Source of the DNA: a virus
IMG/VR virus record: IMGVR_UViG_3300009163_003337
Span: 18,395 to 82,394 of that record
DNA: 64,000 nt
Reading direction: 5' to 3' (one strand)
Position 1 is the first letter of the stretch. Every line of letters starts with the position of its first letter. The notes beneath the pieces are model-generated. The model ran no database searches. It was not told the DNA's origin and saw nothing but the letters and a program-made list of their open reading frames with translations. The translations under genes and the position numbers were made by a program. Below are positions 4,145 to 35,789 of this stretch, in pieces.

Positions 4145-4582
4145 ATGACGAAGTTTGAATCAAGATTTTTGAGAGTTTTAAGTGAGCAAGATATGGACCG
4201 TCAAGCGATGGAACAGTCACTTGATCAAGGCACGGATCCTGGTAAGTTTGATGTTAGTCCTACTAATGGCAATACAGATGCTGCGTCTCAACACCTTGCT
4301 GCTGCTGCTCAAGTTACTGCACAACAGCATGCCGAGTATGTAAAGCAAATAGAAGGTTGGTTTGCTGAAGTAAGAGAAATTTATAAGTTTCTTAATGCCT
4401 CGGATGGCGCGTCTATACTATCAGTAATATCTAATGCACCGGAAAAAACAATATTAAGCGAGGCTCTTGGTGAGAAAGCGTGTAGTCTAATAGAAAGAGC
4501 TGCAAAGGAAATTAGTGCTCTTAGCACCCTGCTAGAGTCCGCTATAAGCTCAAAGACTAAGCCTGAACTTGCAGGAGTCTAA
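4145..4582 (+). CDS. putative capsid-targeted internal protein
   Basis: A 145-residue protein. The frame is open further upstream, but the ATG at 4145 is chosen because a late octamer lies exactly 5 nt before it. The N-terminus MTKFESRFLRVLSEQD has the short amphipathic peptide plus Leu-x-Glu site shared by a group of proteins here. It resembles the T4 capsid-targeting sequence cleaved by gp21. The rest is Ala/Gln-rich and probably helical (ASQHLAAAAQVTAQQ), without cysteine pairs or enzyme motifs. I infer a head-internal or prohead-core protein. It converges on the primase gene, overlapping its end by about 26 nt. Confidence 0.6.
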   Translation: MTKFESRFLRVLSEQDMDRQAMEQSLDQGTDPGKFDVSPTNGNTDAASQHLAAAAQVTAQQHAEYVKQIEGWFAEVREIYKFLNASDGASILSVISNAPEKTILSEALGEKACSLIERAAKEISALSTLLESAISSKTKPELAGV

Positions 4583-5624
4583 ATTTTTTAATCTCTGAAA
4601 GCTTAATAACCCCTTCAAGAGAATTGAAGGTGTTTTTTTGTATAAATTCTGCTGATATTTCGTCTACCTTACAATATATGGCGATATCGTTAAAGTCTTT
4701 AAATCGCTTACCGATTTTTTCAGGCCATATAAACACATTCTCACCGTTTAGTAGTAATGTCTCTGATTTCTTAAGTGAAGCATTATCAATCCACTGACTA
4801 TCAAGTACCCATATACGATCCATCCACCTTAGTGTTGTATCAACTTGTTTTTGCTGCCTTTCAGTAAACGTCGCGTTACCTCTTTCTGTAATTCCAGCTA
4901 CTGCAACACTATTTTTTGTAAAAAACGCATTAATAGGACCTTCAAAGATAAAAACACTCTTACTATCACTAGTAACCTTATCTATATTAAAGAGAGTCTT
5001 TTCAGCATTAATTCTCGAAACATATTTTGGTCGCGTCTTATTATCACTAGGTATTATTGTTCTAGATTGGTAGAATTCAATGTTACCCTGTTCACTTTTA
5101 AAAGGTAACACTAACCGATTTTTATGAACAGGATCTGTAAGTGATAGATAGAGGTTGTCAGGGCGGTTCACCGCTGTATCTAGACGTCTACCGTGAATTA
5201 ATGCTAAACAAGCGGATACAACGGGATTTGTACTGTAAAACTTAAGCTGCTGACTGTCACTCAAGTTAATAGAGTCTTTAGGTAGGGTTTCTGTCTTAGG
5301 CCTTACTAGAGGCTCATCAATAATAGGCAAAATCTCACGTTCACCAGTATAATTCTCAACTTCTGCAATAATTTCTGTATCAGTCTTACCCGATACTTCC
5401 TTAATCCACGTATAAGGCTTTCCAGACCAACCACAATTATGACAAAAGATATTGTCATTTTTTGGAATATAATAACAACGCTTTTTGTTGCCAAATGAAG
5501 AACCGCTACCCTCTCTACAAATAACACAACTTGCTTGGTAAGTATTATTAAACTTATTACGCTTAGGTCGGTGTGAATATTGAAAGAATTTTTCTACAAT
5601 ATAATCTTCTGGTAAACTAATCAT
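4557..5624 (-). CDS. 61: DNA primase (T4 gp61-like)
   Basis: A 355-residue primase that makes RNA primers for lagging-strand synthesis with the gp41 helicase. The N-terminal zinc ribbon has C33/C36 (CVIC) and C61/C64 (CHNC), followed by GWSGKPYTW, the usual DnaG/gp61 zinc-domain pattern. The C-terminal half carries a TOPRIM-type motif (VFIFEGPINAFF) with the catalytic Glu, and an acidic WVLDSQ stretch. Its length is close to T4 gp61 (342 aa). The start overlaps the end of the upstream RNase H gene by 4 nt, so the two are translationally coupled. Confidence 0.88.
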   Translation of the reverse strand: MISLPEDYIVEKFFQYSHRPKRNKFNNTYQASCVICREGSGSSFGNKKRCYYIPKNDNIFCHNCGWSGKPYTWIKEVSGKTDTEIIAEVENYTGEREILPIIDEPLVRPKTETLPKDSINLSDSQQLKFYSTNPVVSACLALIHGRRLDTAVNRPDNLYLSLTDPVHKNRLVLPFKSEQGNIEFYQSRTIIPSDNKTRPKYVSRINAEKTLFNIDKVTSDSKSVFIFEGPINAFFTKNSVAVAGITERGNATFTERQQKQVDTTLRWMDRIWVLDSQWIDNASLKKSETLLLNGENVFIWPEKIGKRFKDFNDIAIYCKVDEISAEFIQKNTFNSLEGVIKLSEIKKFRLLQVQA

Positions 5625-6496
5625 ACAAACATTGATAATAGACGACTTTTTACAAAAAACAAGTTATACCAGTCTTCTCTCTTATTAAGAATAGAATTAA
5701 TATCATGCTCTTGGCATAATTCAATAAACTGTTGAAAGTTAGGCACGCAACTCAAAACAGCTGGCATTTGATTCTGATAATACATTAATTCATCACGGTT
5801 GTCAATAGATCTATATCTATCTAAGCGAAATATCTCCAAATTGCGTGTAAATATTAACTGCTCTTCTGTCGTGAGTTTAATATTGCCGTTCAGGTACTGT
5901 TGTACTCTAACCTTACCGAATTTAGGAATACCCGATACATTATCAGATTTATCACCCGTAAGACACTTAATAGTCATGAAATTAGCTTGATCATAACCTA
6001 CAAGTGTAGTAAAGTTATCTTGATTTACTTCTGTTTTACGTATTGGATCGTAAACAGCTACCTTAGCATTAACCAACTGCAAGAAGTCCTTATCAGCAGA
6101 TACAATTATCTTAGAGCCTTCAAGCGACTCAGATAAGTATGCAATAACATCATCAGCTTCTAAACTACGTGGAAAGATAGACTGTATACCTAAGGTATAA
6201 AGAAATTCTTTAATCGTTTCATTATTTTTATGCGGCGACTCATCACTAGACCTGTTACCCTTATAATCTGTTAAAAGATCTTTACGCGTATTACGTTGAT
6301 AATCCGGCTTTTCATCCCAACATGCGATGATTTTATCTGGTTTATAAGTATTAACGTAGCTTTTAATTGCATTGAGTGTAAAGTAAATATGAAAACTATC
6401 TAGTTTAGCTTGATTTTCAGTACCTGCAACATTCTTTGCCGTCCAAAAAGTGCGGTGTATTGCATTATTCATATCCATTAGGAGAGTCTTACTCAT
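5621..6496 (-). CDS. rnh: RNase H / 5'-3' exonuclease (T4 rnh-like)
   Basis: A 291-residue flap/FEN-type nuclease that removes RNA primers from lagging-strand fragments. Acidic metal-binding motifs appear in family order: LLMDMNNAIHRTFW, IIACWDEK, SLEADDVIAYL and IIVSADKDFLQL. The helix-hairpin region is KCLTGDKSDNVSGIPKFG. T4 RNase H is 305 aa. It lies just upstream of the primase gene in one - strand operon with the clamp and gp32 genes. Confidence 0.9.
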   Translation of the reverse strand: MSKTLLMDMNNAIHRTFWTAKNVAGTENQAKLDSFHIYFTLNAIKSYVNTYKPDKIIACWDEKPDYQRNTRKDLLTDYKGNRSSDESPHKNNETIKEFLYTLGIQSIFPRSLEADDVIAYLSESLEGSKIIVSADKDFLQLVNAKVAVYDPIRKTEVNQDNFTTLVGYDQANFMTIKCLTGDKSDNVSGIPKFGKVRVQQYLNGNIKLTTEEQLIFTRNLEIFRLDRYRSIDNRDELMYYQNQMPAVLSCVPNFQQFIELCQEHDINSILNKREDWYNLFFVKSRLLSMFV

Positions 6497-6541
6497 ATAC
6501 CCATATTATCATAGTTCCTTATAAATTTAATAATAGCAATT

Positions 6542-6808
6542 CTATGCCTCGACAGATTCATTTTGTTCATACAACGCTAAACATACCTTAAACACGTCAT
6601 CTGGTACTGTCTCTACATATTTAAGTATATCATTACTTCTTGCAAGCTCATATGACTCAAAAGGTACATGCCTGTTCTTTTTTGTAGGTATAGCAAGAAA
6701 ATTATGAGTCGTAGATGTTGTTTTAACAAACAACATCATTTCACCAGCATATTGACCATGGTGTACAGCGTATACACTACCTATTGTCGGTATATCATGA
6801 TTGCTCAT
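6542..6808 (-). CDS. conserved phage hypothetical protein (88 aa)
   Basis: A small beta-rich protein starting MSNHDIPTIGSVYAVHHGQY. The motif GSVYAVHHGQYAGEMMLFV and the Pro-Phe-Glu pattern near the middle resemble a conserved small protein in the replication region of T4-like marine phages; I know of no function. The start used overlaps the upstream gene by 14 nt; an ATG 9 nt further upstream is possible. Confidence 0.55.
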   Translation of the reverse strand: MSNHDIPTIGSVYAVHHGQYAGEMMLFVKTTSTTHNFLAIPTKKNRHVPFESYELARSNDILKYVETVPDDVFKVCLALYEQNESVEA

Positions 6809-7121
6809 TAGTCTCAATTTGAGATATGCCGTGTGTAATTAAGCTAGTAATTATTACCTCCATTGACGATGTCTTAAGTGAGTAATTTCGTGGATATAAA
6901 CGACCACCATCATTAAACTCAAACATCATTTCACCCTTAAAATCCTTGTTTTCATAACATGTAATAAATAGTGAAGCATTACCTGGATCAACTAGAATTG
7001 TCCACTTTCTAGGGTCCGAATTAGCATAACACGTATTTATTTTCCAGGTGTTAATCTGGCAGTCTTTTAAGCGCTTTACAAAATACGATAGTGTTGTGAT
7101 TTTATTTTTAAGTATTCTCAT
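6795..7121 (-). CDS. conserved phage hypothetical protein (108 aa)
   Basis: A 108-residue protein with the pattern DPRKWTILVDPGNASLFITC followed by an EFNDGGR motif and a helical tail. It looks like a small alpha/beta domain, and similar proteins occur beside the clamp gene in other T4-like phages, as far as I recall. The start overlaps the stop of the sliding clamp by 4 nt, so it is probably coupled to clamp expression. No catalytic motif is seen and the function is unknown. Confidence 0.6.
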   Translation of the reverse strand: MRILKNKITTLSYFVKRLKDCQINTWKINTCYANSDPRKWTILVDPGNASLFITCYENKDFKGEMMFEFNDGGRLYPRNYSLKTSSMEVIITSLITHGISQIETNEQS

Positions 7122-12587: not shown

Positions 12588-13268
12588 TTATATAAATAAA
12601 AATGGCGATTTGGTCTCGAATGTATCAGCGATCTTCCACTCTTTAAATTCAGATAGTACCATAATCACCCCTTCTGGTAGTAATTTAAACCCTTCACCAC
12701 CAAGGGTAGAGATATCACCGGTGTCATTGTAATGAAGAATAGATCCCTGTCTTGCAATATAAACTTCATTAGTATCTGTATCTATTACACACAGCGCAAA
12801 GGTTCCTTCGAGTCTACCGAGAACCTTTTTAATAAGAGTATGAGCTAAGCACTCACCGTTACATTCTTCAGTAAAGTGTTGTAGTAAGTTAGGAATTACG
12901 GCGGTATCAACAGGATTTACATCCCAATCTACAAATTCTGCTACTAAACTCTTCGAATTAGTAAGTACACCATTGTGAACAACAGACCATGAAAGAGATT
13001 CAAAGGGGTGAGATGTATCATATGACCAGTAGCGGGCAGCTGATGTAGGTGCCTGGACGTGCCCTATATAGTAATCACATCTCTCATCTAACTGAATTTG
13101 GTTAAAATCGAGCGTACCTTGCTTTTTAATAACTTGCTGCTCGTTTCCATTGTAAAGACAAAGAACTCCACTAGCAAAATTACCGCGAGGTAGATTACCT
13201 TCATATAATACTTCAAATTTTGATACATTGTTAGATCCTATAATTGCGCAAATAATTAAGCTTCTCAC
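12588..13268 (-). CDS. class II glutamine amidotransferase (Ntn-type), standalone
   Basis: A 226-residue glutaminase domain that would release ammonia from glutamine. The nucleophile motif CAIIG begins at residue 7, not residue 2, if the GTG start is used. The other family motifs follow: HVQAPTSAARYW, SLSWSVVHNGVLTNS (His-Asn-Gly) and GTFALCVIDTDTNEVYIAR. There is no synthetase domain, so it must work with a partner. In dG+ phages the amidotransferase is fused to QueC, and this phage encodes a separate QueC nearby. The GTG overlaps the stop of a tiny hydrophobic ORF. An ATT directly before the Cys could instead be the start. Confidence 0.78.
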   Translation of the reverse strand: MRSLIICAIIGSNNVSKFEVLYEGNLPRGNFASGVLCLYNGNEQQVIKKQGTLDFNQIQLDERCDYYIGHVQAPTSAARYWSYDTSHPFESLSWSVVHNGVLTNSKSLVAEFVDWDVNPVDTAVIPNLLQHFTEECNGECLAHTLIKKVLGRLEGTFALCVIDTDTNEVYIARQGSILHYNDTGDISTLGGEGFKLLPEGVIMVLSEFKEWKIADTFETKSPFLFI

Positions 13269-13664: not shown

Positions 13665-14144
13665 ATGAGTTCCTTTAGTAATCTACTTTCAAGGCTATCT
13701 TTTCTTAACGAGCAGTTTAAGCTAGGTAAGCCAGAGACAAAGGTGTTAAATCCAATAATTGCATCACTTAAGCATCCAACTATTTTGGATAAAAAGCCCG
13801 CGAATTCGTATTTAAAGAACTTGGTAAAAATTACTGCACTGTCGAGATTAGATCTAATAACGAATGAGCAATTTAGTATACTTAAAAGGAAAGCTGCATC
13901 TGTAACGTATATTACTAATAAGTTAAAAGAATTTGGGCTATATGATAAGTTATTTAAAGATGATGCCACAATAGATGAGGTCAATAATTTTGTTATTGAT
14001 AACGCTAGAATGCTTGTTGGTTTTGCTGCTAAGCAAATGCCTGGCGGTGGTTATGACTTACCTGATGAGGGTCTAGAGCCTGAAGAAATAGCGAGAGAGG
14101 TAGTGCAAGATTTGAGTCAAGATATAGATGACTATTCAGAGTAA
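13665..14144 (+). CDS. putative capsid-targeted protein, N-terminal part
   Basis: A 159-residue product ending at a TAA. The N-terminus MSSFSNLLSRLSFLNEQFKL fits the capsid-targeting-like pattern with a Leu-x-Glu site, and a late promoter precedes it. The reading frame stays open for another 200 codons immediately after this TAA without any shift. It therefore looks like the first part of one longer protein interrupted by a single stop. The C-terminal portion before the stop is acidic (DEGLEPEEIAREVVQDLSQD). No family is recognised. Confidence 0.6.
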   Translation: MSSFSNLLSRLSFLNEQFKLGKPETKVLNPIIASLKHPTILDKKPANSYLKNLVKITALSRLDLITNEQFSILKRKAASVTYITNKLKEFGLYDKLFKDDATIDEVNNFVIDNARMLVGFAAKQMPGGGYDLPDEGLEPEEIAREVVQDLSQDIDDYSE

Positions 14145-14753
14145 TTTTCAGATGCATATCAAATTGAAATTAAGTTTGCAAAGCGTACGTCAGAAATTGT
14201 TGTTACAAAGGTAGCAGAGTTGCTAAAATCTATAACATCAAACGATGATGTTATAGACATCGATGAAACAAATGGTGCTATTGATATAATTGTAGCAAAA
14301 AATACTGCATTAGATAACAGATTAGATAAAGCTGTAAAGTTAAATAATCCAACTCAAACATTTGACCAAATTGAAAGGGATATAGAGGGCTATATACACA
14401 GTAAGGCAAATATAGATGTTGTAGTTCAAGTAATGGGTCCGGACAAAGAAGCTGTATCTAATTTATCTAATAACGGTTATGAAGACGAAGAGATGTATGG
14501 TGAAGAGGAAGCTGAAGATCAAACAAATCAGGTAGGTAATTGGACAATTGAGGAGCTAGAGGGATTGGGTATAATAATGCCAAGATATACAGGTGGTAAA
14601 ACACCAATTGAAGAAAGATCAGTACTTAACTATATGTCAGAACAGAAAGTATATAATACTCCAAAGCTCGTTGTTGAATCGCAGAGCTTTAAAGACAAAT
14701 TTAAGCCAAAGACATCTAAGCAATTGGCTGAGTTAAGAAATTACGGAATGTAA
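14145..14753 (+). pseudogene. continuation of the same frame after an in-frame TAA
   Basis: The open frame begins right after the TAA at 14142-14144, in the same phase as the upstream ORF. It encodes about 202 residues (FSDAYQIEIKFAKRTSEIVV...). There is no ATG or GTG near its beginning; the first usable alternative start is a TTG at 14220, and no late promoter or ribosome site precedes it. The product is acidic with a Gly-Asp-Glu-rich middle. It is best read as the C-terminal part of the protein starting at 13665, reached by readthrough or lost through mutation or sequencing error. Confidence 0.5.
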
Positions 14754-15559
14754 CATCCTTTAGCTTCATAAATCTCATTCAGCTTTTCTTGCTGAAGATA
14801 CTCAATAGGGTCTCTAAATCCAGCCTCAATAAAGCCAGCTAATCTCAAACTACTTGAAGGGGTAGTAGCATCAGCTAAACCATCTCCACGATTAGAATAG
14901 CATGTCCATGTGTCTTTGAAGTTTACCCCAAGCTCTACACCCTGCCTTACAATATCAGCTTTCGACATGGAGAGCAGTGGAGCTCCCACGTTAATCCTAT
15001 GTTGTCTGTTAAGTGATACTAAGCTGTTTACACTATCAACAAACTCTTGACTACCATCCCAATAACCGGCTAAAGAGTCTACTTGAGCAGCACCATACCA
15101 TACTGTATCTGCTCTAAGGCTTTCTGCATAAGCACAGCAGATCGTAATAAACATCTGATTCCTAAACGGTACATATGATACAGGTTGTGCATCACCTGCG
15201 ATTTTACTAATATCAGGGTTATCAATCTCTTCATTAGTGAGAGATGAAGTAGGTGAGATATTTTTTAAATATGTTACATCTAATGTTTTATTTGTAATAA
15301 TAACATTAGGATATTTCTCTTTAATAAGTTGATATTGAACACCCATGCACTCTAATTCCCTACTATGTCTTTGACCGTAATCAAAGGATACAGTATGGAG
15401 CTCTTTTACGCCACCTGCAGCAGCGATGTGTAATAGTAACGTTGAATCCATTCCACCTGAAAATGCCAAAACAAGCTTTTCTGGTGGTTTAGGCGCTACA
15501 TAACCGATTGATTTCTCATAGTCTGTTAAAATTTCTGATATACTTTTATCTTTATTCAT
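14741..15559 (-). CDS. queC: QueC-like 7-cyano-7-deazaguanine synthase
   Basis: A 272-residue member of the QueC family, which converts CDG to preQ0 with ATP and ammonia. The PP-loop ATPase motif SGGMDS is at residues 34-39. FDYGQRHSREL and VPFRNQMF follow as expected. The C-terminal zinc site is degenerate: C220 (TWTCYS) is kept, but the segment that normally holds CGxCxSC reads ADATTPSSS. The protein may have lost zinc or work differently. Together with folE, queD and queE it outlines a preQ0 route. Its start overlaps the uvsX stop by 8 nt. Confidence 0.85.
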   Translation of the reverse strand: MNKDKSISEILTDYEKSIGYVAPKPPEKLVLAFSGGMDSTLLLHIAAAGGVKELHTVSFDYGQRHSRELECMGVQYQLIKEKYPNVIITNKTLDVTYLKNISPTSSLTNEEIDNPDISKIAGDAQPVSYVPFRNQMFITICCAYAESLRADTVWYGAAQVDSLAGYWDGSQEFVDSVNSLVSLNRQHRINVGAPLLSMSKADIVRQGVELGVNFKDTWTCYSNRGDGLADATTPSSSLRLAGFIEAGFRDPIEYLQQEKLNEIYEAKGCYIP

Positions 15560-17488: not shown

Positions 17489-17628
17489 AAATTCACTTTA
17501 AAAATCAATATAAAAAAGAACCTCTCTTGGTGCGCATTATTAAGAGGCGTGGGAGGTGTTGTTTAAAAAACACCCTCGAAAGTGTGCTTAAATCAGAGGC
17601 ATCGAGGGTCTGCTAAATTTATTTATTC
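17489..17628. terminator. structured convergent intergenic region
   Basis: The 140-bp gap between converging genes contains alternative stems: GGTGTT/AACACC (17555-17560 with 17569-17574) and a perfect 8-bp pair ACCCTCGA/TCGAGGGT (17572-17579 with 17602-17609) that overlaps it, plus CTCTT/AAGAG (17524-17528 with 17542-17546). This could be a bidirectional terminator or a small structured RNA. It is unusually GC-rich for this genome. Confidence 0.4.
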
Positions 17629-17976
17629 TCAGTCTTCAAAAAGTTTGATAACTTCTGCATCTCCTTGTGGAGCTTGTTGAGGTACAGGGGAATTAATGCC
17701 ATGATATTGTGTAATAATCTTGCTATCTAATTTAACACTAGTTAGCACAATAGAGGCTTTGTTGAAGGTCCAGTGATTTGCTGTTCGGGATTCAGGTGCT
17801 AGAAATTCCATAAAAATATATGGAATTGATTGAACTTGAAGTTGACCGGTTTGTTGGTTTGGCTGTACGTGTACAATTACAGGATTATCAAGTGTTAGTG
17901 TTGTCTCTGTCTGGGATACCTCAATCCCGATAACAGTACGACCGATGTGATCTACGATGGTTGTTATATTACTCAT
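17629..17976 (-). CDS. conserved hypothetical protein with LF-type acidic tail
   Basis: A 115-residue beta-rich protein beginning MSNITTIVDHIGRTVIGIEV, possibly a small Sm- or SH3-like barrel. The last residues, EVIKLFED, form a hydrophobic-acidic tail like the sliding-clamp-binding peptides of T4 proteins (compare the DNA polymerase tail here, ELSDLFSF). If that is right it could be a clamp client, for example in replication or late transcription. The function is not established. Confidence 0.55.
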   Translation of the reverse strand: MSNITTIVDHIGRTVIGIEVSQTETTLTLDNPVIVHVQPNQQTGQLQVQSIPYIFMEFLAPESRTANHWTFNKASIVLTSVKLDSKIITQYHGINSPVPQQAPQGDAEVIKLFED

Positions 17977-18001
17977 AATATGATATATTATATATTAAAA
18001 A

Positions 18002-18238
18002 TTAATTTTCAACTTTCTTTTTTGACAAAGCTTTATCTACTTCTGATTTCCAATTTAAGAGTCCACGCCTCATACTCTCAATACCAGTGTGATTATTAAT
18101 ACCAGAGCCATCATCGTTTCCCATCATAATATTAGAGATAATTTCAAGTACGCTTGTAATTCCGTTATGTTTACCACGCCAGAATGCTGGATGAGCTCTT
18201 GGTGTATTATCGTGTTCAGGTTGATCTAAATATTCCAT
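18002..18238 (-). CDS. conserved hypothetical protein (78 aa)
   Basis: A 78-residue acidic protein starting MEYLDQPEHDNTPRAHPAFW, with a helical C-terminal part (GLLNWKSEVDKALSKKK). It lies 25 nt downstream of the next - strand gene and 55 nt from a divergent late gene. No family is recognised. Confidence 0.55.
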   Translation of the reverse strand: MEYLDQPEHDNTPRAHPAFWRGKHNGITSVLEIISNIMMGNDDGSGINNHTGIESMRRGLLNWKSEVDKALSKKKVEN

Positions 18239-18280
18239 ATTAACTATAATTAGTAATATGCTTTAAAAATGCAACATATT

Positions 18281-18288
18281 AATAAATA
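18281..18288 (+). promoter_or_regulatory. late promoter AATAAATA
   Basis: Octamer with exactly 5 nt to the ATG at 18294. Confidence 0.65.
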
Positions 18289-18293
18289 ATTAT

Positions 18294-18833
18294 ATGAGAA
18301 AGCAAAGTGATTGGATTTTATTAGAGCAAGCCTATGTGCAGGTACATGAAGGTGTTGCAGGGGATATGATAATTAAAGCTGGGGCTTTTCTTGTTAAAAA
18401 ATTACAAGAAGCTGATTCAAAAATGTTTAAAGAATTACAAGAGATAGTAAGTAATAAAGATGTACAAGCTTTAGATAAAATTATGAATCAACCCCAAGTA
18501 CAGCAAGCTAAAGAGTACTTTTCACAACCAATACAAGAATCAGTTTTTGGTAATGCTGGTAAAATAATTAAAAAAATATATGGTTATTTTATGAATACTT
18601 CAAAGGGTGGAGGTGTGGCTCTGTATATTTTTGGTGCGTTAAGTTTGCTAATAGCTTTATATTTAAAAAATACGGATGATTTCGCCATACGAGCAAGTGT
18701 TGAATTTACAGATGTGCTTATTAAATTTTTTACAGCAGCGGGAATTGCTGAATTAGGTCTGGGAGGTTATAGTAGATTAGATTCTAATCATTTTGACAAC
18801 AGACCAAAAGAAAATGGAAAAGTAAAGTATTAA
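18294..18833 (+). CDS. putative capsid-targeted membrane-active protein
   Basis: A 179-residue protein whose N-terminus, MRKQSDWILLEQAYVQVHEG, fits the capsid-targeting-like group. A strong hydrophobic segment (GGGVALYIFGALSLLIALYL, residues about 103-122) would span a membrane. A second, more polar one follows (IKFFTAAGIAELGLGG). A virion-packaged protein with a membrane segment could act at genome entry. The late promoter is at the standard spacing. It converges with the DNA polymerase gene, overlapping by 4 nt. No family is recognised. Confidence 0.6.
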   Translation: MRKQSDWILLEQAYVQVHEGVAGDMIIKAGAFLVKKLQEADSKMFKELQEIVSNKDVQALDKIMNQPQVQQAKEYFSQPIQESVFGNAGKIIKKIYGYFMNTSKGGGVALYIFGALSLLIALYLKNTDDFAIRASVEFTDVLIKFFTAAGIAELGLGGYSRLDSNHFDNRPKENGKVKY

Positions 18834-20431: not shown

Positions 20432-20472
20432 TCTTAGGAGAAATATATATTGCAGTTTTTTCTCTAGTTTGA

Positions 20473-28087: not shown

Positions 28088-28342
28088 ATGAAATCAACTG
28101 TAACTTTTAAAGAATATTTTGAGATTTATGTTGAAGAAATGACGGTCGGTGGTGTTATGGGTGGAAGTACAGGAGGATTCAGTCCTAGTAATCCAACTAG
28201 CTCTGACTTTTATGCACCAGGTGATGCTCGTATAGCCACACCTGATCAATATATATGTACGAGAGCAGGAGCTATAAAACGCAATAAAAAAAGAGCTAAG
28301 AAAAGAGCTAAGAGAAAAACTAAGCATAATATTAAAAAATAA
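28088..28342 (+). CDS. putative capsid-targeted basic internal protein
   Basis: An 84-residue protein with a capsid-targeting-like N-terminus (MKSTVTFKEYFEIYVEEM, possible cut after Val-Glu-Glu). A Gly/Ser-rich middle follows (VGGVMGGSTGGF), then a very basic C-terminus (KKRAKKRAKRKTKHNIKK) that would bind DNA. T4-like marine phages have similar small Gly-rich basic proteins. The stop TAA overlaps the next ATG by one base. It is likely packaged with the genome. Confidence 0.65.
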   Translation: MKSTVTFKEYFEIYVEEMTVGGVMGGSTGGFSPSNPTSSDFYAPGDARIATPDQYICTRAGAIKRNKKRAKKRAKRKTKHNIKK

Positions 28343-28770
28343 TGAACTTAGGTCACTGGATTACCTCATTAGATACTACCGACGATGTTATACCGTACGG
28401 ATTTATATATAAGATTACATGTTTAATTAATTCTAGATCATATATCGGTAAAAAACAGTGTAAAACTATATTAAAACGTAGACCACTTAAAGGCAAACGT
28501 AATAAACGTCATGAAGAGCGTGAGACCGACTGGAAAATATACACTTCTTCATCGAGAGAACTTAATGAAGATATAGTGACATACGGTATGGAAAAATTTG
28601 TCTTTGAAATATTGCGTTTTTGTAATTCAAAATTTGAAATGTCATACTTTGAAGCTAAACTTCAATTTGAAGAGGAGGTCCTCTTAAGAGATGACTTTTA
28701 TAATGGCATTATTAACTTACGAATTGGTAGACCGAAAAACGCAAATGACTATAGAACACAGGATACCTAG
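28342..28770 (+). CDS. GIY-YIG-like endonuclease, conserved phage type
   Basis: A 142-residue protein with YGFIYKITCLINSRSYIGKK, a clear GIY-YIG core. A basic Lys/Arg stretch follows (PLKGKRNKRHEERETDW), then a helical part with a Glu-rich end (FEAKLQFEEEVLLRDDFYNG). Similar proteins are frequent in T4-like phages, usually annotated as putative Seg-type homing endonucleases, though their role is uncertain. It overlaps the preceding stop by one base and the following gene by 26 nt, so it is embedded in the late cluster. Confidence 0.72.
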   Translation: MNLGHWITSLDTTDDVIPYGFIYKITCLINSRSYIGKKQCKTILKRRPLKGKRNKRHEERETDWKIYTSSSRELNEDIVTYGMEKFVFEILRFCNSKFEMSYFEAKLQFEEEVLLRDDFYNGIINLRIGRPKNANDYRTQDT

Positions 28771-29277: not shown

Positions 29278-29661
29278 ATGAGTAAATTTCTTAATTTAGT
29301 GGAGAGTAATCTACCTCCACAAGATCTTGATAAGAATAGAGAGGTTTTACGAGACTTACAGCAGCTTTTAAGTAAATCAGGCATAACGTCTTCACTAAAA
29401 ACTTTTAAGGATGTTGTAGTTATTACCGTAAATAATAAGGTTGTTGAGTTAGAGCTTAAACATATCTCACAATCTACAGAAGAAGAGGCAGAAGATCAGA
29501 CGGCTAAAATGATAGCAGCAGTTGCTGGTTTACCAGACCAAGGTATGAAAGGATTCATTCCGGGTACGACGTCAAACAAGCTTGCACAAGCCAAAAAAAC
29601 AATGGCTGATGCAGTCGGAATAATGGCTAATAAATTTAGAGATGCAGCAAACGCGAAATAA
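29278..29661 (+). CDS. putative capsid-targeted protein (127 aa)
   Basis: A 127-residue protein with N-terminus MSKFLNLVESNLPPQDL, matching the group pattern (Leu-Val-Glu near residue 9). The rest is predicted as a small alpha/beta domain plus an acidic Glu-rich helix (STEEEAEDQTAKM) and an Ala-rich C-terminal helix. The late promoter is at standard spacing. It is probably a head-internal or core protein. No family is recognised. Confidence 0.6.
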   Translation: MSKFLNLVESNLPPQDLDKNREVLRDLQQLLSKSGITSSLKTFKDVVVITVNNKVVELELKHISQSTEEEAEDQTAKMIAAVAGLPDQGMKGFIPGTTSNKLAQAKKTMADAVGIMANKFRDAANAK

Positions 29662-29664: not shown

Positions 29665-30420
29665 ATGAATAATTTAAATAAATTATTTGAAAAGTATTAT
29701 AGAATACTTAACGAACAAGAGCCGCAAGAAGGAGATATACCTACAGCAACAGGTGATCAACAACAAGCAGTTGATACACCTGTTGATCAAGATAATCAAC
29801 AACCACCGGAGCCAGAAATTATAGTCACTCCAGGTGAGAAATATATTATAAATATTTTAATAAGTGCTTTTTGCTTTGACAAATCGAAGCTTACCAAGCC
29901 GCAATTAATAGAGGTTCGTAATTTAACTAGTAAAATTAATGACCTAAAGGGAAGTTCAATCGCTACCTCAATAGATCTAATTAAGCAGATTTTAAAATTA
30001 CAACCAAATACCGTTGTTAGGGAATTTAAAACACTTAATTTAATTAAACGTTATATACTAATAATTGATCAATCACTTGATGCTACAGATCTCAATAACT
30101 CACAACCTACTAATACAGTAGATCAACCTCTTAAAAATTTTAATAATAGACCTGAAGTGGGGGAATTGGAATTATCTAGACTTTGGCCGCAATATAGTGA
30201 TTTAATAATATCAGCAATAGAACACATACCGACAGTTAGCGATTTTTTAATATTAAGGCCAAGTATTAATAAGTTTATTGAAGAAGATCCAATAGAATTA
30301 GTTACTGTAATTAAAGACCTTCTAACATTCCGTAGCAGTGAGGTAACCGATAAACGAGACAAGTTGCCTGACCCGGATATTGATTCTCCTACCTCAGATC
30401 TGCCTTTAGATTCTCTATAA
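29665..30420 (+). CDS. putative capsid-targeted protein (251 aa)
   Basis: A 251-residue protein starting MNNLNKLFEKYYRILNEQEP, which fits the capsid-targeting pattern with a Leu-Asn-Glu site. An acidic, Gln/Pro-rich linker follows, then a helical domain of about 150 residues (EKYIINILISAFCFDKSKL; TLNLIKRYILIIDQSLDATD). The C-terminus is acidic with several Asp-Pro pairs. No catalytic motif is visible. It is probably a head-internal or core protein, co-transcribed with the preceding gene. Confidence 0.6.
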   Translation: MNNLNKLFEKYYRILNEQEPQEGDIPTATGDQQQAVDTPVDQDNQQPPEPEIIVTPGEKYIINILISAFCFDKSKLTKPQLIEVRNLTSKINDLKGSSIATSIDLIKQILKLQPNTVVREFKTLNLIKRYILIIDQSLDATDLNNSQPTNTVDQPLKNFNNRPEVGELELSRLWPQYSDLIISAIEHIPTVSDFLILRPSINKFIEEDPIELVTVIKDLLTFRSSEVTDKRDKLPDPDIDSPTSDLPLDSL

Positions 30421-30421
30421 T

Positions 30422-30509
30422 ATGCCTAATCGTAAATTAACAACTATTTATAGCAGCTTTAGACACATCGCAAACAGATATTGAAAACGAAATAGCTAAG
30501 TATGATTAA
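30422..30509 (+). pseudogene. tiny ORF interrupted by a frameshift (about 28 aa)
   Basis: Frame 1 reads MPNRKLTTIY and then continues poorly. Omitting one base near 30452 gives AALDTSQTDIENEIAKYD and a TAA that overlaps the next start (ATGATTAA), the same overlap as between the genes at 32983 and 33467. The fused peptide looks like a compact small protein. It may be real, broken, or chance. Confidence 0.35.
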
Positions 30510-31305
30510 TTTTAAAGAATATTACCGTGTTATAGTCGAAGGAGGAAATATATTTACTGTAGATCCTACAGTACGTATTCAATTAGCATATATTAAACCA
30601 ACAGTTGATATGCTTTCAAATATTGTTAATATTAAAAATCTTGATAACTGTTTGTTGGGTAGTACTGGAAAAAGAGAGTCCTCAGGTGATTTAGATATAG
30701 CAATTGACAGTAAAAAATATACTAAAGATGAAATAACAAACTTATTAATTAAGTGGTGTGAAGATCCAGAGCGTAATTTTGTACCTAAATATTATATTGC
30801 TAGAGCCGGGGATAGTAAAAGTTGGCTCCGAGCATCTGGAGATCAGCTACACTTTAGAACACCTATAGTAGGTTTAGATGGTCAGTTTGTACAAACAGAC
30901 TTCATGTTTGTACAAGATATTAAATGGGCTAAATTTGTATTAGCTAATGATGAAGCAAGTCCTTATAACGGTAAACACAGAGGTGTAATATTATCAACTC
31001 TTGCTAAGAATATTAACTGTAAGTGGAGTGGTTTAAAGAGTATAACAAATAGAACATCAGGAGCGGTTGTTGAGGGTTCAAATCCAGATAGAGTTGCTCA
31101 AATACTACTAGGCGATAAGAATGCTAAGAAAGGTAACCTTAAGACAATTCCAAACATCCTATCATTTCTATATAAAAAATATAATGATGTAGAGGTAGTT
31201 TTAAACATATTAGTTGCCGCGCGACAGATAATACTTAAAGACGGTTTAGATATAGCTACATTACTACCACAGCAAAAATTAAAAGCAAAGGTAGAAAATG
31301 ATTAA
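30502..31305 (+). CDS. capsid-targeted nucleotidyltransferase (Pol beta superfamily)
   Basis: A 267-residue protein with N-terminus MINFKEYYRVIVEGG, near-identical in style to the next gene's. The nucleotidyltransferase core is LLGSTGKRESSGDLDIAID (G-S...D-x-D, two catalytic Asp) with the third acidic residue in QTDFMFV. C-terminal helices follow, as in tRNA-nucleotidyltransferase or MNT-type enzymes. The substrate could be nucleic acid or a host protein. I infer virion packaging from the N-terminal peptide and position. It overlaps the next gene by 8 nt. Confidence 0.72.
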   Translation: MINFKEYYRVIVEGGNIFTVDPTVRIQLAYIKPTVDMLSNIVNIKNLDNCLLGSTGKRESSGDLDIAIDSKKYTKDEITNLLIKWCEDPERNFVPKYYIARAGDSKSWLRASGDQLHFRTPIVGLDGQFVQTDFMFVQDIKWAKFVLANDEASPYNGKHRGVILSTLAKNINCKWSGLKSITNRTSGAVVEGSNPDRVAQILLGDKNAKKGNLKTIPNILSFLYKKYNDVEVVLNILVAARQIILKDGLDIATLLPQQKLKAKVEND

Positions 31306-31840
31306 CTTTAAACAATTTTTCGAACAGCTACAAAATGTAGAGACAATAGCTGTCTTACCAGGAGGTTTTAAACCACCTACAAAAGGACATTTTTTAGCAT
31401 TAGAAAATATTTTACAAGATGCTAATAAGGGAGTTATTTTTATAGGTAAGAGTCCTCGTGACGGTATAGATCAAGAAATGTCATATCAAATATGGTCTAT
31501 TTACAAACCCTATCTTTCAAAGCCTGTTGAAATTGTTAAGAGTGATGTTACACCTGTTAAATCTACCTATGATCTTGCTACTGAACATACTAACGTTAAT
31601 ATAATTGTTGGAGCAGGCTCAAAAGATAACGATATAATGAGATATAATTATTTTATTAAAAATACGGAGAAATATCCTCATGTTGTTGTGACTCCTATTA
31701 ACATTCAAGGAGGTAATATTAGTGGAACTAAAGTTAGAGATATGATACTTTCGAAAGATCCTAATGTAGTTAATTATTTTGTGCCAGACAATATTAAGGA
31801 AACAGATAGAGAAAGAATTAAGAATATACTTAATATATAA
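31298..31840 (+). CDS. capsid-targeted NMN-adenylyltransferase-like enzyme
   Basis: A 180-residue member of the cytidylyl/adenylyltransferase family. It has the dinucleotide site VLPGGFKPPTKGHFLALEN (the His-x-x-His motif in T-K-G-H form) and the second motif ISGTKVRDMI near residue 142. These are the usual marks of NadM/NadR-type NMN adenylyltransferases that make NAD. The N-terminus MINFKQFFEQLQ is an added peptide before the catalytic domain, of the capsid-targeting-like type. A packaged NAD-related enzyme could affect NAD-based defence, which is inference. Confidence 0.75.
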   Translation: MINFKQFFEQLQNVETIAVLPGGFKPPTKGHFLALENILQDANKGVIFIGKSPRDGIDQEMSYQIWSIYKPYLSKPVEIVKSDVTPVKSTYDLATEHTNVNIIVGAGSKDNDIMRYNYFIKNTEKYPHVVVTPINIQGGNISGTKVRDMILSKDPNVVNYFVPDNIKETDRERIKNILNI

Positions 31841-31843: not shown

Positions 31844-31854
31844 TTATATTAGCA

Positions 31855-32964
31855 ATGCATAATAAACAACTATCAAATATTTATAGTAAAGGAGTCCTTG
31901 GTAATTTCATCAAGAAACCTCTATATCTACGCGTTTTAGGTGAAGCAGACGAAAAAATTAAAAAGTATAGTAAGCGTGAATTAGCGATAATTATTGCAGC
32001 TAAAGATCCAAATTTAACTGTAGGTTCTTGCAGTAAAGATACACGGGTTCAGCCAAAAGGTCCATATGATGTAACTAAATTTATTCAGACATTAGAAGAT
32101 GCTAAACTATCAATTGTTAAGATAGTTAAGCCGGGTGAGGATGGATCTACTTCTAGTCTACTTCGTACATATATTGTACAAGACGAAAACGAAAATGAAT
32201 ATCCCGTTGTATTAGGCAAGGGTAAAGGTTTTGGTACAAGGGATGAAAATTTTGTTCTAGATAATTTAAAGGAACAAATAAAATCTCTATTAATACAAGA
32301 TGATACTGATTACATTACTATTGAGATAAATGGTGAGAGTCAAAAAGTTGACGGTATTGAAACTACCCCAAAAACCCCAAAGAGTGATTTTAATTTTACT
32401 TACAAAGGTAAACCAGTATTATTTATCTCACATAAAGCAGGTAAAAAAGCCTCTGACTACCAGCAATACGGAGGAATGACATGTAAAGCAGGTAAGGATA
32501 TATGTCAACATGAAGAGATAGAGGATTTTGTTGATCAGATTAAAGAGAGATATGCAGACGGTATGCCTCCTGGTAAGTCTTTATGGAAGAGGATTAGAGA
32601 TCCTAAGCTTAAAAAACTTTCTCTTTTTGGTCCGGATTACGGTGAAAAATACGGAGAAGATAATGTTAATGGCTTGTATCAAGGTAATATAAAAATTGTT
32701 CCAGCTGATAATGATACATATAAACTTGAAGCACATCATATTATATACAATGACGATATACCAGATGGAGAATACGAGCCAGTATTATACGCAAGATATA
32801 GTGGATCAAGAGGCGGTAATCACGGAATTAAAGATTTAAGAACTGCAATTTTACCAATAGCAAAAATATCTAAAAATACACAAGATGTTAAATTAAACAA
32901 GGCTAATATTAATGCATTAGATAATACCGAGTCTAAAATAGAGGACTTATTGTTAAATAACTAG
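31855..32964 (+). CDS. capsid-targeted probable PD-(D/E)xK nuclease-like protein
   Basis: A 369-residue protein. The N-terminus continues as LYLRVLGEADEKIKKYSK, with a Leu-Gly-Glu site inside a longer leader than in its neighbours. The middle has a Glu (GTRDENFVLDNLKEQI), then KSDFNFTYKGKPVLFISHKAGK: the order E...D...(I/V)xxK fits the PD-(D/E)xK nuclease fold. QQYGGMTCKAG follows, as in proteins I have seen in other phages. A Cys/His site (CKAGKDICQHEE) lies downstream. A nuclease role is inferred, not proven. Confidence 0.6.
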   Translation: MHNKQLSNIYSKGVLGNFIKKPLYLRVLGEADEKIKKYSKRELAIIIAAKDPNLTVGSCSKDTRVQPKGPYDVTKFIQTLEDAKLSIVKIVKPGEDGSTSSLLRTYIVQDENENEYPVVLGKGKGFGTRDENFVLDNLKEQIKSLLIQDDTDYITIEINGESQKVDGIETTPKTPKSDFNFTYKGKPVLFISHKAGKKASDYQQYGGMTCKAGKDICQHEEIEDFVDQIKERYADGMPPGKSLWKRIRDPKLKKLSLFGPDYGEKYGEDNVNGLYQGNIKIVPADNDTYKLEAHHIIYNDDIPDGEYEPVLYARYSGSRGGNHGIKDLRTAILPIAKISKNTQDVKLNKANINALDNTESKIEDLLLNN

Positions 32965-32969
32965 AATAG

Positions 32970-32977: not shown

Positions 32978-32982
32978 GTATT

Positions 32983-33474
32983 ATGCTAAAACGTAGAGAT
33001 CAAAATTTGTTATCAGAAGCTTACGGTCAAGTAGGTGGCTGTGATCTAAGTGCTCCGAGCTTAATGGGTAAGCCTGTTATGATAACAATGGATATGCCAG
33101 GCACAGAGGTATATAATAGTCATGATCATAACCATGATCACGAGCACAATAGTGAAGAGCAGGATCCAAGCGAAATAGAAATGGCATTATCTGAGCTACA
33201 TAAGCTTGCAGAATATGCGCCAAAGTTAAAGGAGATCGTTGAGGATCTACCTTCTCTCGAAGGTTGGGTATCCTCGAAAATAACAAAAGCATCGGACTAT
33301 ATTTCATCTGTTTATCACTGGCTTGAGTACCAGCAACACGAAGGTTGCGGAGAACATAGTCAAGAAATGTTCAATACAGGTAGTGAAGACTCAGGCTGTG
33401 AATATGCGAAGCAAGGGTGTGAGTGTGGAGGATGTAGTGATTGTGGAGGATGTAGTGATTGTACCTATGATTAA
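32983..33474 (+). CDS. capsid-targeted Cys/His-rich protein
   Basis: A 163-residue protein with N-terminus MLKRRDQNLLSEAYGQVGG (Leu-Leu-Ser-Glu site). A His/Asp/Asn-rich stretch follows (HDHNHDHEHN), then an acidic helical domain containing SKITKASDYISSVYHWLEYQ. The Cys-rich tail ends GCECGGCSDCGGCSDC. The tail and the His stretch probably bind metal. The tail is encoded by a duplicated 18-bp unit. Similar helical domains are known in marine T4-like phages; the Cys-rich tail looks like an addition. It overlaps the next start by 8 nt. Confidence 0.65.
   Translation: MLKRRDQNLLSEAYGQVGGCDLSAPSLMGKPVMITMDMPGTEVYNSHDHNHDHEHNSEEQDPSEIEMALSELHKLAEYAPKLKEIVEDLPSLEGWVSSKITKASDYISSVYHWLEYQQHEGCGEHSQEMFNTGSEDSGCEYAKQGCECGGCSDCGGCSDCTYD
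33424..33459 (+). repeat. two tandem 18-bp repeats encoding a Cys-Gly-Gly-Cys-Ser-Asp unit
   Basis: Two identical 18-bp copies (33424-33441 and 33442-33459) encode repeated CGGCSD units in the tail of the Cys-rich protein, a recent in-frame duplication. Confidence 0.85.
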
Positions 33475-33901
33475 TTTTAAAAATTTTTTCGAAAAGACGG
33501 TTATAGGTCTCATTGAGGTAATGAGTATCGAGGGTATCGGGTCTATTAAAGTTAAAATAGATTCAGGTAACGGAGCCTATAATGTAATACACGGTGATGA
33601 TCTCACTATACAAGGTTCAAAAGTTTCTTTTACTACTATTAATGGAAAACGACTAATAAAGGATGTAGAGGATACTATAAGCATTAATGTAGGAGCTGGT
33701 CATACAGAAGAACGCCCAGTGGTTAAATTTAGAGTTAAATTTGCCGGTACAGAATTTGAAAATATACCTTTTAGTATAGGTAACAGAGAAGCTAATGAAT
33801 ATAAAGTCCTTGTTGGTAAGGATTTTATTAAGCAGCTTGATGCTTTAATTGATGTAAATTCAAACAATATTGCGAATAATCAAATTGAAGTTAAATATTA
33901 A
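33467..33901 (+). CDS. capsid-targeted retropepsin-like aspartic protease
   Basis: A 144-residue protein starting MINFKNFFEKTVIGLIEVM. The frame is open further upstream, but this Met is chosen because the same MINFK leader opens two neighbours and the ATGATTAA overlap matches. The domain has VKIDSGNGAYNVIHG, an Asp-Ser-Gly catalytic motif, and VLVGKDFI, the downstream hydrophobic-Gly strand of retropepsins. The fold and length fit the clan AA family of small single-domain proteases, which act as dimers. A packaged protease next to other packaged enzymes could process them or act in the host. Confidence 0.66.
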   Translation: MINFKNFFEKTVIGLIEVMSIEGIGSIKVKIDSGNGAYNVIHGDDLTIQGSKVSFTTINGKRLIKDVEDTISINVGAGHTEERPVVKFRVKFAGTEFENIPFSIGNREANEYKVLVGKDFIKQLDALIDVNSNNIANNQIEVKY

Positions 33902-34428: not shown

Positions 34429-34450
34429 AACTCATAATATGTAAGTTCCT

Positions 34451-35119
34451 TTACTTTGTAGAAGCCATATCGATAAACTTATAAAGCTCGGTACGAGTCT
34501 TTTCATCGGTAAGAAAATCACCTGTAAGTTTAGATGTAATCATAAAACAACCATCATGTCTTACTCCTCTATTACACGCGCATGTATGTTGAGCTTTAAG
34601 AACTACAGCCACACCTAGATTACCTTCACAAGCTATATTGACAGCATCAGCAATTTGTTTTGTTAACATTTCTTGGATTTGAGGTCTACGAGCATAAAAC
34701 TCAACAATACGATTGAGCTTACTAAGACCGATAACCTTACCATCTAGACTCGGAATATATGCAAGATGAGCAACACCAGTAAAGGCTAAATGATGATGTG
34801 AACAAAGAGACTTTACAGGAATATTACACTGTGCAACAATCCCATCATAACCATCATTAGGAAATGCAGTTACATCAGGTTGACTATCATAACAACCGGT
34901 CGCAATATCATTAACGAATGCCTTAGCGACACGCATAGGGGTATTATCTGAATTAGGATCATTCCGCCAATCAAACCCAAGTGCATCCATATATTTTTCA
35001 TATGCTTTTGCTGCACGCTTAATAATAGCTTGCTTTTCTCTTTCTGTTCTTGGAGCGTTACCATTAGCATATGGTAATTTAACTAGGTCACCAATCTCAA
35101 CGTGTTCTAAATCTTCCAT
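34451..35119 (-). CDS. folE: GTP cyclohydrolase I (FolE)
   Basis: A 222-residue FolE, which converts GTP to dihydroneopterin triphosphate, the first step toward preQ0. The zinc and catalytic residues are intact: [20 protein letters not shown] (Cys and His ligands), and [13 protein letters not shown] with the second Cys ligand. The [20 protein letters not shown] segment is the usual family block. T4-like phages with preQ0 pathways often carry folE together with queD and queE, as here. It is divergent from a late gene with a 49-bp gap. Confidence 0.93.
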
Positions 35120-35155
35120 ATTAATGATTATAAATCATAATTTATCGATTTCAAC

Positions 35156-35163
35156 TATAAATA
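35156..35163 (+). promoter_or_regulatory. late promoter TATAAATA
   Basis: Perfect octamer with exactly 5 nt to the ATG at 35169. It supports that start over the upstream in-frame Met. Confidence 0.68.
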
Positions 35164-35168
35164 CTAAT

Positions 35169-35789
35169 ATGCGTAAGCTTTCACAAAGAGAATTATTAGA
35201 AGAAAAATGGGGCGACTATTTTAGAGGTTTTGGTAAAGCTGCTGCAAGAAAAGCTCTTGCAGCAACTAAGGGTATAATTAGAACTATTTCACCTACAGGC
35301 GCTAAAATTCTAAGTTCTGCTGCTGATGCTGTTGGCGCAACAGCTGCTAATATTCTTGGATCAAGTCCAAAAAACGCGTTAGAAACGTTTTTAAAAAGAC
35401 CAGAAAACCAACACTTATTTAAGACATATGAAATAATTAAAGAAACAAATTTACCAAACGGTGATAGATCCATAGAACTCACAGGTGAATTTATTCATCC
35501 ACAAACATTTGCTATATCAAATATTACAACAAATATTGTATTTCGTCGTGTTGATAGTGGAGGAATTAGTCCAGAGAAATGGAAGTGTATAAGTAAATTT
35601 AATAACCAAACCGGGCAATTTAGTATAGAATCAACCCCACCAGCTACAGCACCTGCTACGACAGCGACACCTACGACTGCTACGCCACCACCAGCTACGA
35701 CAGCAGCTAACGGAAGACAACTAAGCCAGACTCCAAGTGCAATAAGAAGTAGAAATGCTAGAGCAGCAGCAAGAGCAGCAGCACCTTAG
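35169..35789 (+). CDS. putative capsid-targeted protein, Ala/Thr/Pro-rich tail
   Basis: A 206-residue protein starting MRKLSQRELLEEKWGDYFRG, with a Leu-Leu-Glu-Glu site. A helical basic segment follows (AAARKALAATKGIIR), then a beta-rich domain with YEIIKETNLPNGDRSIELTG. The C-terminus is a disordered Ala/Thr/Pro-rich tail (PATTATPTTATPPPATT) ending in an Arg/Ala-rich stretch. The late promoter is at the standard spacing. I infer a head-internal protein. No family is recognised. Confidence 0.6.
   Translation: MRKLSQRELLEEKWGDYFRGFGKAAARKALAATKGIIRTISPTGAKILSSAADAVGATAANILGSSPKNALETFLKRPENQHLFKTYEIIKETNLPNGDRSIELTGEFIHPQTFAISNITTNIVFRRVDSGGISPEKWKCISKFNNQTGQFSIESTPPATAPATTATPTTATPPPATTAANGRQLSQTPSAIRSRNARAAARAAAP

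Follow-up and report, generated by a model that had tools for sequence, protein, structure and literature searches.

Leader-bearing proteins in the window

We analyzed a window of 64,000 nt (bases 18395–82394 of the 82394-base virus record IMGVR_UViG_3300009163_003337), in which an earlier note had picked out twelve proteins sharing a short N-terminal peptide that resembles the capsid targeting sequence (CTS) of phage T4, together with a homolog of the T4 prohead protease gp21. All 12 reading frames were present with the N-termini described, and the gp21 homolog was borne out by its matches to PF03420 and phrog_207 (Table 1). The source of the record is a T4-like phage, the window encoding a T4-type portal that shares 28–33% identity with portals of cyanophages and Vibrio phages among the matches listed. 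The Peptidase S77 (S77) enzyme, which is presumed to remove the leaders, is encoded by the last gene, where the record stops; scaffold and capsid genes were therefore taken from relatives, in which they were found via gp21. Eleven relatives were searched, five of them whole, and the six genomes referred to below are the record and five relatives. Gene starts in genomes G000–G006 came from our own gene caller, some of them being wrong, and three in G000 were corrected by hand. The leader-bearing proteins (carriers) are named by their start positions. The starts of 4145, 33467, and 35169 are internal ATGs within longer open reading frames (ORFs); the first two are backed by homologs and the third by equivalently placed genes of five relatives, which start SQ/TQ..[LI][LI]xE (six genes in all).

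Table 1. Candidate carriers and prohead protease of the window, with the strength of each carrier as graded from sequence comparisons (↓, predicted cleavage point)
Position	Strand	Product	Leader	Grade	Supporting features
4145..4582	+	Candidate carrier, 145 aa	MTKFESRFLRVLSE↓Q	good	leader kept in 5/5 family members; NATAAATA 33 (TATAAATA at 4112) and 13 nt upstream
13665..14144	+	Candidate carrier	end SSFSNLLSRLSFLNE↓Q	weak	TATAAATA 17 nt upstream
18294..18833	+	Candidate carrier, hydrophobic segment (by eye)	MRKQSDWILLEQAYVQVHE↓G	weak	loose AYxxV-type pattern; NATAAATA 13 nt upstream
28088..28342	+	Candidate carrier, 84 aa, basic tail (by eye)	MKSTVTFKEYFEIYVEE↓M	good	homologs with similar leaders in G002, G003, G004, and G006; TATAAATA 17 nt upstream
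29278..29661	+	Candidate carrier	MSKFLNLVE↓S	good	leader kept in 5/5 family members; NATAAATA 13 nt upstream
29665..30420	+	Candidate carrier	MNNLNKLFEKYYRILNE↓Q	good	leader kept 4/4; NATAAATA 8 nt upstream
30502..31305	+	Predicted Pol X-like nucleotidyltransferase (NTase)	MINFKEYYRVIVE↓GGN, predicted cleavage after residue 13	strong	T4 rule matched
31298..31840	+	Predicted NMN-adenylyltransferase (NMNAT)-like adenylyl/cytidylyltransferase	MINFKQFFE↓Q	strong	T4 rule matched; phrog_395 cytidyltransferase 4.6e-06
31855..32964	+	Predicted type II restriction-enzyme-like nuclease	...LYLRVLGE↓A (30 aa)	strong	PADLOC REase_II 2.1e-10; TATAAATA 19 nt upstream
32983..33474	+	Candidate carrier	LLSE↓AYGQV-type	good	leader kept 6/6; NATAAATA 13 nt upstream
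33467..33901	+	RimB/RloA-like retropepsin-type protease	MINFKNFFE↓K	strong	PF05618; T4 rule matched; leader kept 6/6
35169..35789	+	Candidate carrier	MRKLSQRELLEE↓K	good	TATAAATA 13 nt upstream
63211..63876	+	gp21-type prohead protease (Peptidase S77)			PF03420 E 9.5e-31; phrog_207 2.3e-54; TATAAATA 13 nt upstream

As judged from the comparisons below, CTS-type packaging appears well supported for about ten carriers and weakly supported for 13665 and 18294. Leaders similar to that of 13665 occurred in G001 (LLTE↓G) and G002 (LLNE↓A) at low significance, and its homologs in five relatives were only weak (E 0.01 and worse). This reading frame probably represents the 5′ part of a gene that an in-frame stop has interrupted, with the remainder at 14220–14753; both halves lie in the same frame, and a seemingly whole gene was seen in G002 (503 aa) and G001 (561 aa), the match to the first half being weak. 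No homolog of 18294 was found among the five relatives at E ≤ 1e-3.

Enrichment of T4-type leaders

Targeting of T4 IPIII depends on residues 4 and 7, and its processing on residues 8 and 10 (PMC9026906). The T4 rule applied here combined an aromatic residue at positions 4 and 7, the IPIII targeting residues defined by mutagenesis, with Glu at 9–14, a range chosen after the window leaders had been seen. Among 829 N-termini, 21 matched it where 2.8 would be expected, and none of 2000 permutations gave more than 9; this rate of 2.5% compared with 0.30% at other offsets. With homologs counted once, the matches represented 10 genes or families (a second count gave 11, two of them homologous to each other). 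Within the record, 3 of 88 N-termini matched (P=0.0023), namely those of three unrelated enzymes with near-identical starts, MINFKEY (30502), MINFKQF (31298), and MINFKNF (33467), to be compared with MKTFKEF of T4 ipI and MKTYQEFIAE of ipII and ipIII. The remaining nine carriers do not match the rule exactly, and seven of them (all but 13665 and 18294) draw support from the conservation of their own leaders; that of 31855 was supported by comparison with homologs.

A scoring matrix was built from the leaders of T4 internal proteins and of S-CREM2 proteins detected by mass spectrometry (MS), seven in all; it ranked 31298 first and 33467 second among the 88, neither being significant alone (E 0.28 and 0.40); at a threshold of 3, it retrieved 16 of the 829 N-termini against 4.7 expected. 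The pattern EAYxx[VIL] was found at 12 N-termini over six genomes, with 0.34 expected, and is a possible second leader class. Five genes of differing length at 17625–21124 of G001 (L095–L096) start with an L-x-EAY/ESY leader.

Cleavage sites in the head proteins of the relatives were inferred by eye from their likeness to T4. The N-terminal region of gp22 contained sites of the ILSE or VLTE type, and 12 of 16 gp23 N-termini read [ILMV]-x-E followed by A, T, G, or S where T4 gp23 is cut, those of L020, L041, L048, and L053 being off this pattern.

The leader as a portable module

The window NTase carries MINFKEYYRVIVE ahead of GGN (IVE↓GGN), and the leaderless homologs of Sinorhizobium phage Phosso, Flavobacterium phage immuto, and Pseudomonas phage PA5oct, which start MGGN, MGGN, and MSGN, respectively, begin exactly at the predicted scissile bond. 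From 216 environmental relatives found by profile search, 80 were taken; after duplicates had been removed on the basis of the 80 residues that begin with GGN, 52 distinct proteins remained. Glu stood directly before GGN or its variant (position −1) in 51 of these 52, with L (32), I (14), V (3), A (1), or F (1) at P3, and homolog L207 has Met in place of Glu. The E↓GGN junction was kept with only five residues ahead of it (MNLIE↓GGN) and behind 415–735 open codons (L187, L189, and L208). That Glu is kept if anything precedes GGN and is dispensable if the protein starts there would point to proteolysis and to a function for the free GGN terminus.

In the nuclease family of 31855, 80 of 385 relatives were kept and 37 inspected, and 24 were aligned with the window protein, most starts being set by hand. 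Some members carry T4-like leaders (MKTFKGFITE, MLSFKTYITE, MKSFKQFLIQE, MLNLKSFKEFLLE, and MKTFKHFFE), and seven of the 25 aligned sequences are leaderless, starting M-A-N-L-S or similarly at the same junction; six of these seven have no in-frame ATG further upstream, and L272 has one. The DUF6267 domain begins at residue 21 in G001, behind MKSFKLYFEHYLELLEEGKA, and at residue 4 in cyanophage S-CAM9. Pairs with and without the leader were found in the NTase, nuclease, and DUF6267 families, as would be expected of a portable module placed on unrelated proteins.

Leader-like or extended N-termini were also noted in other phages. A RimK-type ATP-grasp ligase fused to a RimB-like protease domain in Pelagibacter phage Mosig (L135:2029–3414) starts MQVQPFKNYLEE↓A. 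HAD-type, nucleotidase-like proteins (by eye) of HTVC008M (L142:12129–12719) and Melnitz-2 (L143:11278–11790) bear N-terminal extensions, ...LHLVQEQ and ...SINEEE, before YCDMD and are possible further cargo.

Leaders and virion proteomes of related phages

The association of leaders with virions was examined in Synechococcus phage S-CREM2, whose virion proteome has been published (PMC10665884). We compared the ORFs at 1–42 kb and 116–145 kb, which hold 13 of its 28 virion-detected proteins of non-structural or unknown type, leaving out undetected ORFs <60 aa and four structural ORFs. A strict rule (F/Y at 4, F/Y/L at 7, and E at 9–14) was matched by 4 of 13 MS-detected versus 1 of 89 undetected proteins (P=0.0008); with F/Y only at 7, the counts were 3/13 and 0/89 (P=0.0017), and those for LxE were 9/13 and 19/89 (P=0.0009). 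The detected carriers were a SAM hydrolase (MKDFDSFLEE), an APH-like kinase (MKRFDAFLTEE), a cytidylyltransferase (MKNFSSFLTEADE), and ORF155; furthermore, ORF13 starts MKDLHSFLTE, and residues 18–27 of a Cas9-like protein read RFASFMAEAA. The cytidylyltransferase group T4-GC190 has been detected in virions of S-SM1 (PMC3037559). The corresponding proteins of P-SSM2 and S-SM2 start MKSFSQFLTE and MKSFFQFLSE, and the leader Glu was invariant across six cyanophage cytidylyltransferases. The available portions of these two papers (PMC3037559 and PMC10665884) do not tie the virion cytidylyltransferases to any targeting peptide. The published MS evidence of virion presence concerns other phages, S-CREM2 and S-SM1.

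Predicted functions of the carriers

The earlier note had proposed a nucleotidyltransferase, an NMNAT-like enzyme, a nuclease, and an aspartic protease among the carriers, and these assignments hold as predictions by family, model, residue, and fold comparisons. Protein 33467 matched PF05618 at E 3.1e-08 (34.1 bits against a cut-off of 27), the NCBIfam models RloA3 (2.4e-08) and RimB (7.3e-04), both below their own cut-offs, and PDB entry 9g58 in a sequence search (E 6.7e-5). Protein 31298 is predicted to be an NMNAT-like member of the cytidylyltransferase family: it hit NMNAT models at 1.9e-4 and 3.3e-4, the best at 21.0 bits and far below the cut-off of 150; its PDB sequence search returned weak adenylyltransferases alone (E 0.057 and 0.15); and phrog_395 was the best PHROG of 31298 and of four cyanophage cytidylyltransferases. 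The nuclease 31855 matched phrog_13937 (function unassigned) at 6.4e-55, and E131, D178, S192-H193-K194, and Q204 were invariant among the 25 aligned sequences; no clear fold match was found in the PDB, the weak match to MspI reaching Z 5.7 over residues 126–334.

For the NTase, G53 S54, D63, D65, and D133 were invariant among six sequences, and the PDB sequence search returned nothing relevant. Many homologs are longer (about 562–567 aa), including that of L085, which is about 73% identical to 30502 in the shared part. The structure model of the L085 protein (mean pLDDT 73) aligned with Pol beta, lambda, mu, and PolX over residues about 17–213 (Z 8.4–8.8; root mean square deviation 3.2–3.9), and its C-terminal part with T4 RNA ligase 2 over 297–533 (Z 9.0) and T4 DNA ligase over 298–455 (Z 8.7). 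These scores are only modestly above the Z of 7–8 that the fold tool calls common for models with no clear match, and the best Foldseek E was 0.011. One NTase homolog scored 24.5 bits with the RNA_ligase model, whose cut-off is 27, and the ligase-like part is missing from the window copy. Sequence and model together suggest that 30502 is a Pol X-like nucleotidyltransferase. A 907-aa protein of phage immuto is the tblastn match of 31298, and its N-terminus aligns weakly with the NTase; matching both, it would link the NTase and NMNAT-like enzymes.

Further matches in the Pfam and PHROG scans of the carriers fell below the cut-offs, namely LAGLIDADG_3 for 29278 (E 3e-4) and Phage_capsid for 32983 (E 0.0025), as did an omptin match for 30502 (E 0.005). 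A defence library was searched with 10 of the 12 carriers, seven of which gave no match; the matches were REase_II for 31855, PDC-M08B for 33467 (E 2e-4), and a hit of very low strength for 35169 (E 0.043). In composition, the cargo resembles a kit for nucleic-acid processing and NAD chemistry, comprising a Pol X-like NTase, a type II REase-like nuclease, an NMNAT-like enzyme, and a RimB-like protease.

Late-promoter motif and cassette order

The motif NATAAATA has been reported as a late-promoter motif in S-PM2 and is close to TATAAATA of T4 (PMC2984593). It was located 8–40 nt upstream of 9 of the 12 carriers versus 8 of 65 other window genes (P=2.4e-5); the carriers with none upstream (30502, 31298, and 33467) all lie inside the cassette. 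Over six genomes, the spacing from the first base of NATAAATA to the start codon was precisely 13 nt in 76 cases, the next commonest value being 14 nt (22 cases); in the window, the 13-nt set included gp21 (63211), 61592, and many carriers (4145, 18294, 29278, 32983, and 35169), among others. If NATAAATA is a T4-type late promoter element, the distance of such elements to the transcription start would place that start at the ATG, and the late mRNAs would be leaderless.

The order of the cassette was the same in G001–G004 and in L085, with DUF6267 replacing the NTase in G001 and G002. In S-CAM9, the nuclease homolog, the DUF6267 protein, and a cytidylyltransferase lie side by side. Matches to DUF6267 occurred in 465 and to the cytidylyltransferase in 532 phage records, counted irrespective of adjacency. 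The first half of phrog_455 matches DUF6267 and the second half cytidylyltransferases (G001, L102:4644–5852), and these cassette neighbors may be fused in one protein in some cases. A SegE-type GIY-YIG homing endonuclease (28342–28770; PF19835, E 2.7e-27) lies inside the cassette, directly behind carrier 28088.

Proposed role and alternative explanations

CTS packaging is textbook knowledge for T4, where the known cargo is small. We propose, with a probability of about 0.76, that the carriers are internal head proteins that would be synthesized late in infection, packaged by their CTS-type leaders, cut by gp21, and ejected with the DNA. The leader of 9–30 residues would bring each protein into the prohead core, and the S77 protease (63211) would cut behind the Glu at its end; the mature proteins would then remain beside the DNA and accompany it into the next host cell. 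The proposal draws on what was computed here, namely a leader that is both modular and conserved, a late-promoter motif, and the leader–MS association in a related phage. From these, we infer that this phage too packages the proteins and that they are cleaved, ejected, and then active, and the steps differ in strength. Packaging of the carriers by the leaders is probable from the sequences, and ejection of the cargo into the host is somewhat favored by analogy with T4. The earlier note had described a packaged enzyme set delivered with the genome, possibly to counter host defence; its T4-type targeting is supported by the leader sequences and the published virion proteomics of relatives, and the delivery rests on the T4 analogy. 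Our best guess for the function is action in the first minutes of infection, in nucleic-acid repair or end-processing and NAD supply; a putative counter-defence function as the main role of the cargo appears doubtful. In relatives, the cargo NTase is apparently fused to an RNA-ligase-like domain. More tentatively, T4-like phages outside the enterobacterial group may share a conserved kit for nucleic-acid repair and NAD that is delivered by CTS leaders, in which the NTase would be matured by the prohead protease to a free Gly-Gly-Asn terminus required for activity, i.e., a capsid-licensed enzyme.

The leader-bearing proteins could instead be parts of the prohead scaffold or core, acting in head shape like T4 gp67, gp68, and IPIII and processed there, not delivered as enzymes. 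This would agree with the similar sites in a core protein and gp22 of the relatives and with 4145, 28088, 29278, 29665, and 35169, which had no Pfam match over the cut-off and no PHROG match; however, no fewer than four carriers are members of enzyme families, and active-site-like residues are conserved in the NTase and nuclease, and we consider this explanation unlikely. Another possibility concerns only the NTase, whose E↓GGN junction might be a structural or catalytic motif of the enzyme itself, with the MINFKEYYRVIVEGGN terminus staying intact and no cleavage site present. The retention of the junction in 51 of 52 distinct homologs, even with five residues before GGN, is compatible with such a motif, but the initiator Met replaces Glu in three isolates and L207, so that Glu is dispensable where the protein starts there, rendering this account improbable. 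Finally, the peptides might be ordinary conserved termini with chance Glu sites, and the proteins late intracellular enzymes. Most carriers have L/I-x-E at the leader end (by eye), and this generic motif is at background: among 90 gene families present in at least three of the six genomes, 18 (20%) had an [LIVMF]xE site conserved close to the N-terminus, compared with 13–21% in other 18-residue stretches. These 18 families included 4145, 29278, 29665, 30502, 32983, and 33467, plus gp21, gp22, and gp23, and did not include 28088, 31298, or 31855. The L/I/V-x-E form of the shared motif given in the earlier note was therefore too loose, and what stands of it is the enriched T4-type rule. This enrichment, the add-on behavior of leaders with a fixed junction in unrelated families, and the association with virion MS detection make ordinary termini distinctly improbable.

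Besides this lack of enrichment for the generic motif, several observations weigh against packaging and processing by T4-type leaders as proposed. A cleaved N-terminus was nowhere seen in the data examined here, and 31298 and 33467 have F at P3, unlike the L/I of T4 gp21 sites. In the leader-bearing nucleases L252, L255, L275, L276, and L280, the start is ambiguous owing to a Met that lies on the junction or immediately after it, and the start scorer chose the inner Met in L252, L275, and L276; L244, L246, L247, L259, and L292 have no Met there. The PA5oct NTase is leaderless, yet it is entered in the phage's record as a structural protein detected by MS; the leader is therefore not the sole route. 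Moreover, S77 is present in all three leaderless isolates (Phosso, PA5oct, and immuto), and absence of the leader is not explained by lack of the protease. The S-CREM2 virion proteins 156, 174, and 176 show neither signature, and the authors, who proposed carriage by the virion, were unable to exclude contamination (PMC10665884, available portion). In S-CREM1, whose NMNAT-like protein starts MKRYTNFLSE, just 14 virion proteins were found, and this protein is not named among them in the portion of the source available. The kinship of 31298 with the cyanophage cytidylyltransferases is remote, with no cyanophage match by tblastn and an hhalign probability of 37% over 156 columns (P 3.5e-4).

Two comparisons were discarded. 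Leader presence could not be set against S77 presence, the leaderless isolates being S77-positive as well; 15 of 20 records were positive, and the five negatives are environmental contigs of 41–90 kb that may be fragments. The leaderless, MS-detected ORF156 of S-CREM2 is itself an NTase (NTP_transf_2, E 3.4e-4, just over the cut-off) and showed no recognizable kinship to 30502 (hhalign probability 2%).

Relation to known systems

The proposed system resembles the CTS-targeted, gp21-cleaved, and ejected proteins IPI, IPII, IPIII, and Alt of T4 in its short N-terminal leader, terminal Glu, S77 protease gene, and, in the strict cases, aromatic residues at 4 and 7; in both, similar leaders precede cargo proteins that are unrelated to one another. 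It differs in its larger and different cargo set, in leaders that are loosely CTS-like (SQRELLEE, LLSEAY, and FESRFLRVLSE) or have F at P3 (in two), and in that packaging, cleavage, and ejection are deduced here. The virion cytidylyltransferases of S-SM1 and S-CREM2 belong to the same broad enzyme family (phrog_395) and carry the same kind of leader (MKNFSSFLTE↓A in S-CREM2), whereas their sequences are remote, the cargo lists of the two phages differ from that of the window, and their authors named no targeting peptide in the portions available. Head proteins of the giant phages phiKZ and SPN3US are likewise cut after Glu at a short motif, and many are ejected, but several of their propeptides exceed 100 residues and the phiKZ motif is S/A-x-E (PMC5694885 and PMC9026906, available portions).

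The CTS principle of T4 and the virion-borne cytidylyltransferases of cyanophages are known already. The remark in the earlier note that the combination was not known as described is accordingly narrowed by the published cyanophage cytidylyltransferases (PMC3037559 and PMC10665884) and retained for their link to a targeting peptide, which the available portions of these papers do not make. A literature search whose reach left out most subscription journals returned no report of a leader linking these two, of the E↓GGN rule, or of the whole set, and among titles and abstract starts it returned no paper on leaders of marine phages; novelty is not thereby proven.

Should this peptide prove to label enzymes in cyanophages, in phages of Pelagibacter and Methylophilales, and in the present clade, injected effectors would be readable from genomes, and the leader rule would predict delivered effectors across marine T4-like phages from sequence. 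The published question of whether metabolic enzymes in cyanophage virions are cargo or contaminants would then gain a testable answer, and the E↓GGN rule would allow a direct test of whether the prohead protease activates a packaged enzyme.

Other genes of the window

A set resembling preQ0/7-deazaguanine DNA modification genes was noted at 12588–13268(−), 14741–15559(−), 34451–35119(−), 35842–36501, and 38161–38922 (amidotransferase-like, QueC, FolE, QueD, and QueE); QueD was supported by phrog_2389 (E 1.4e-35), and the others were assigned by eye. A long run of genes, glycosyltransferase-like or nucleotide-sugar-like by eye, extends over 41078–54839, with a methyltransferase-like gene on the other strand.

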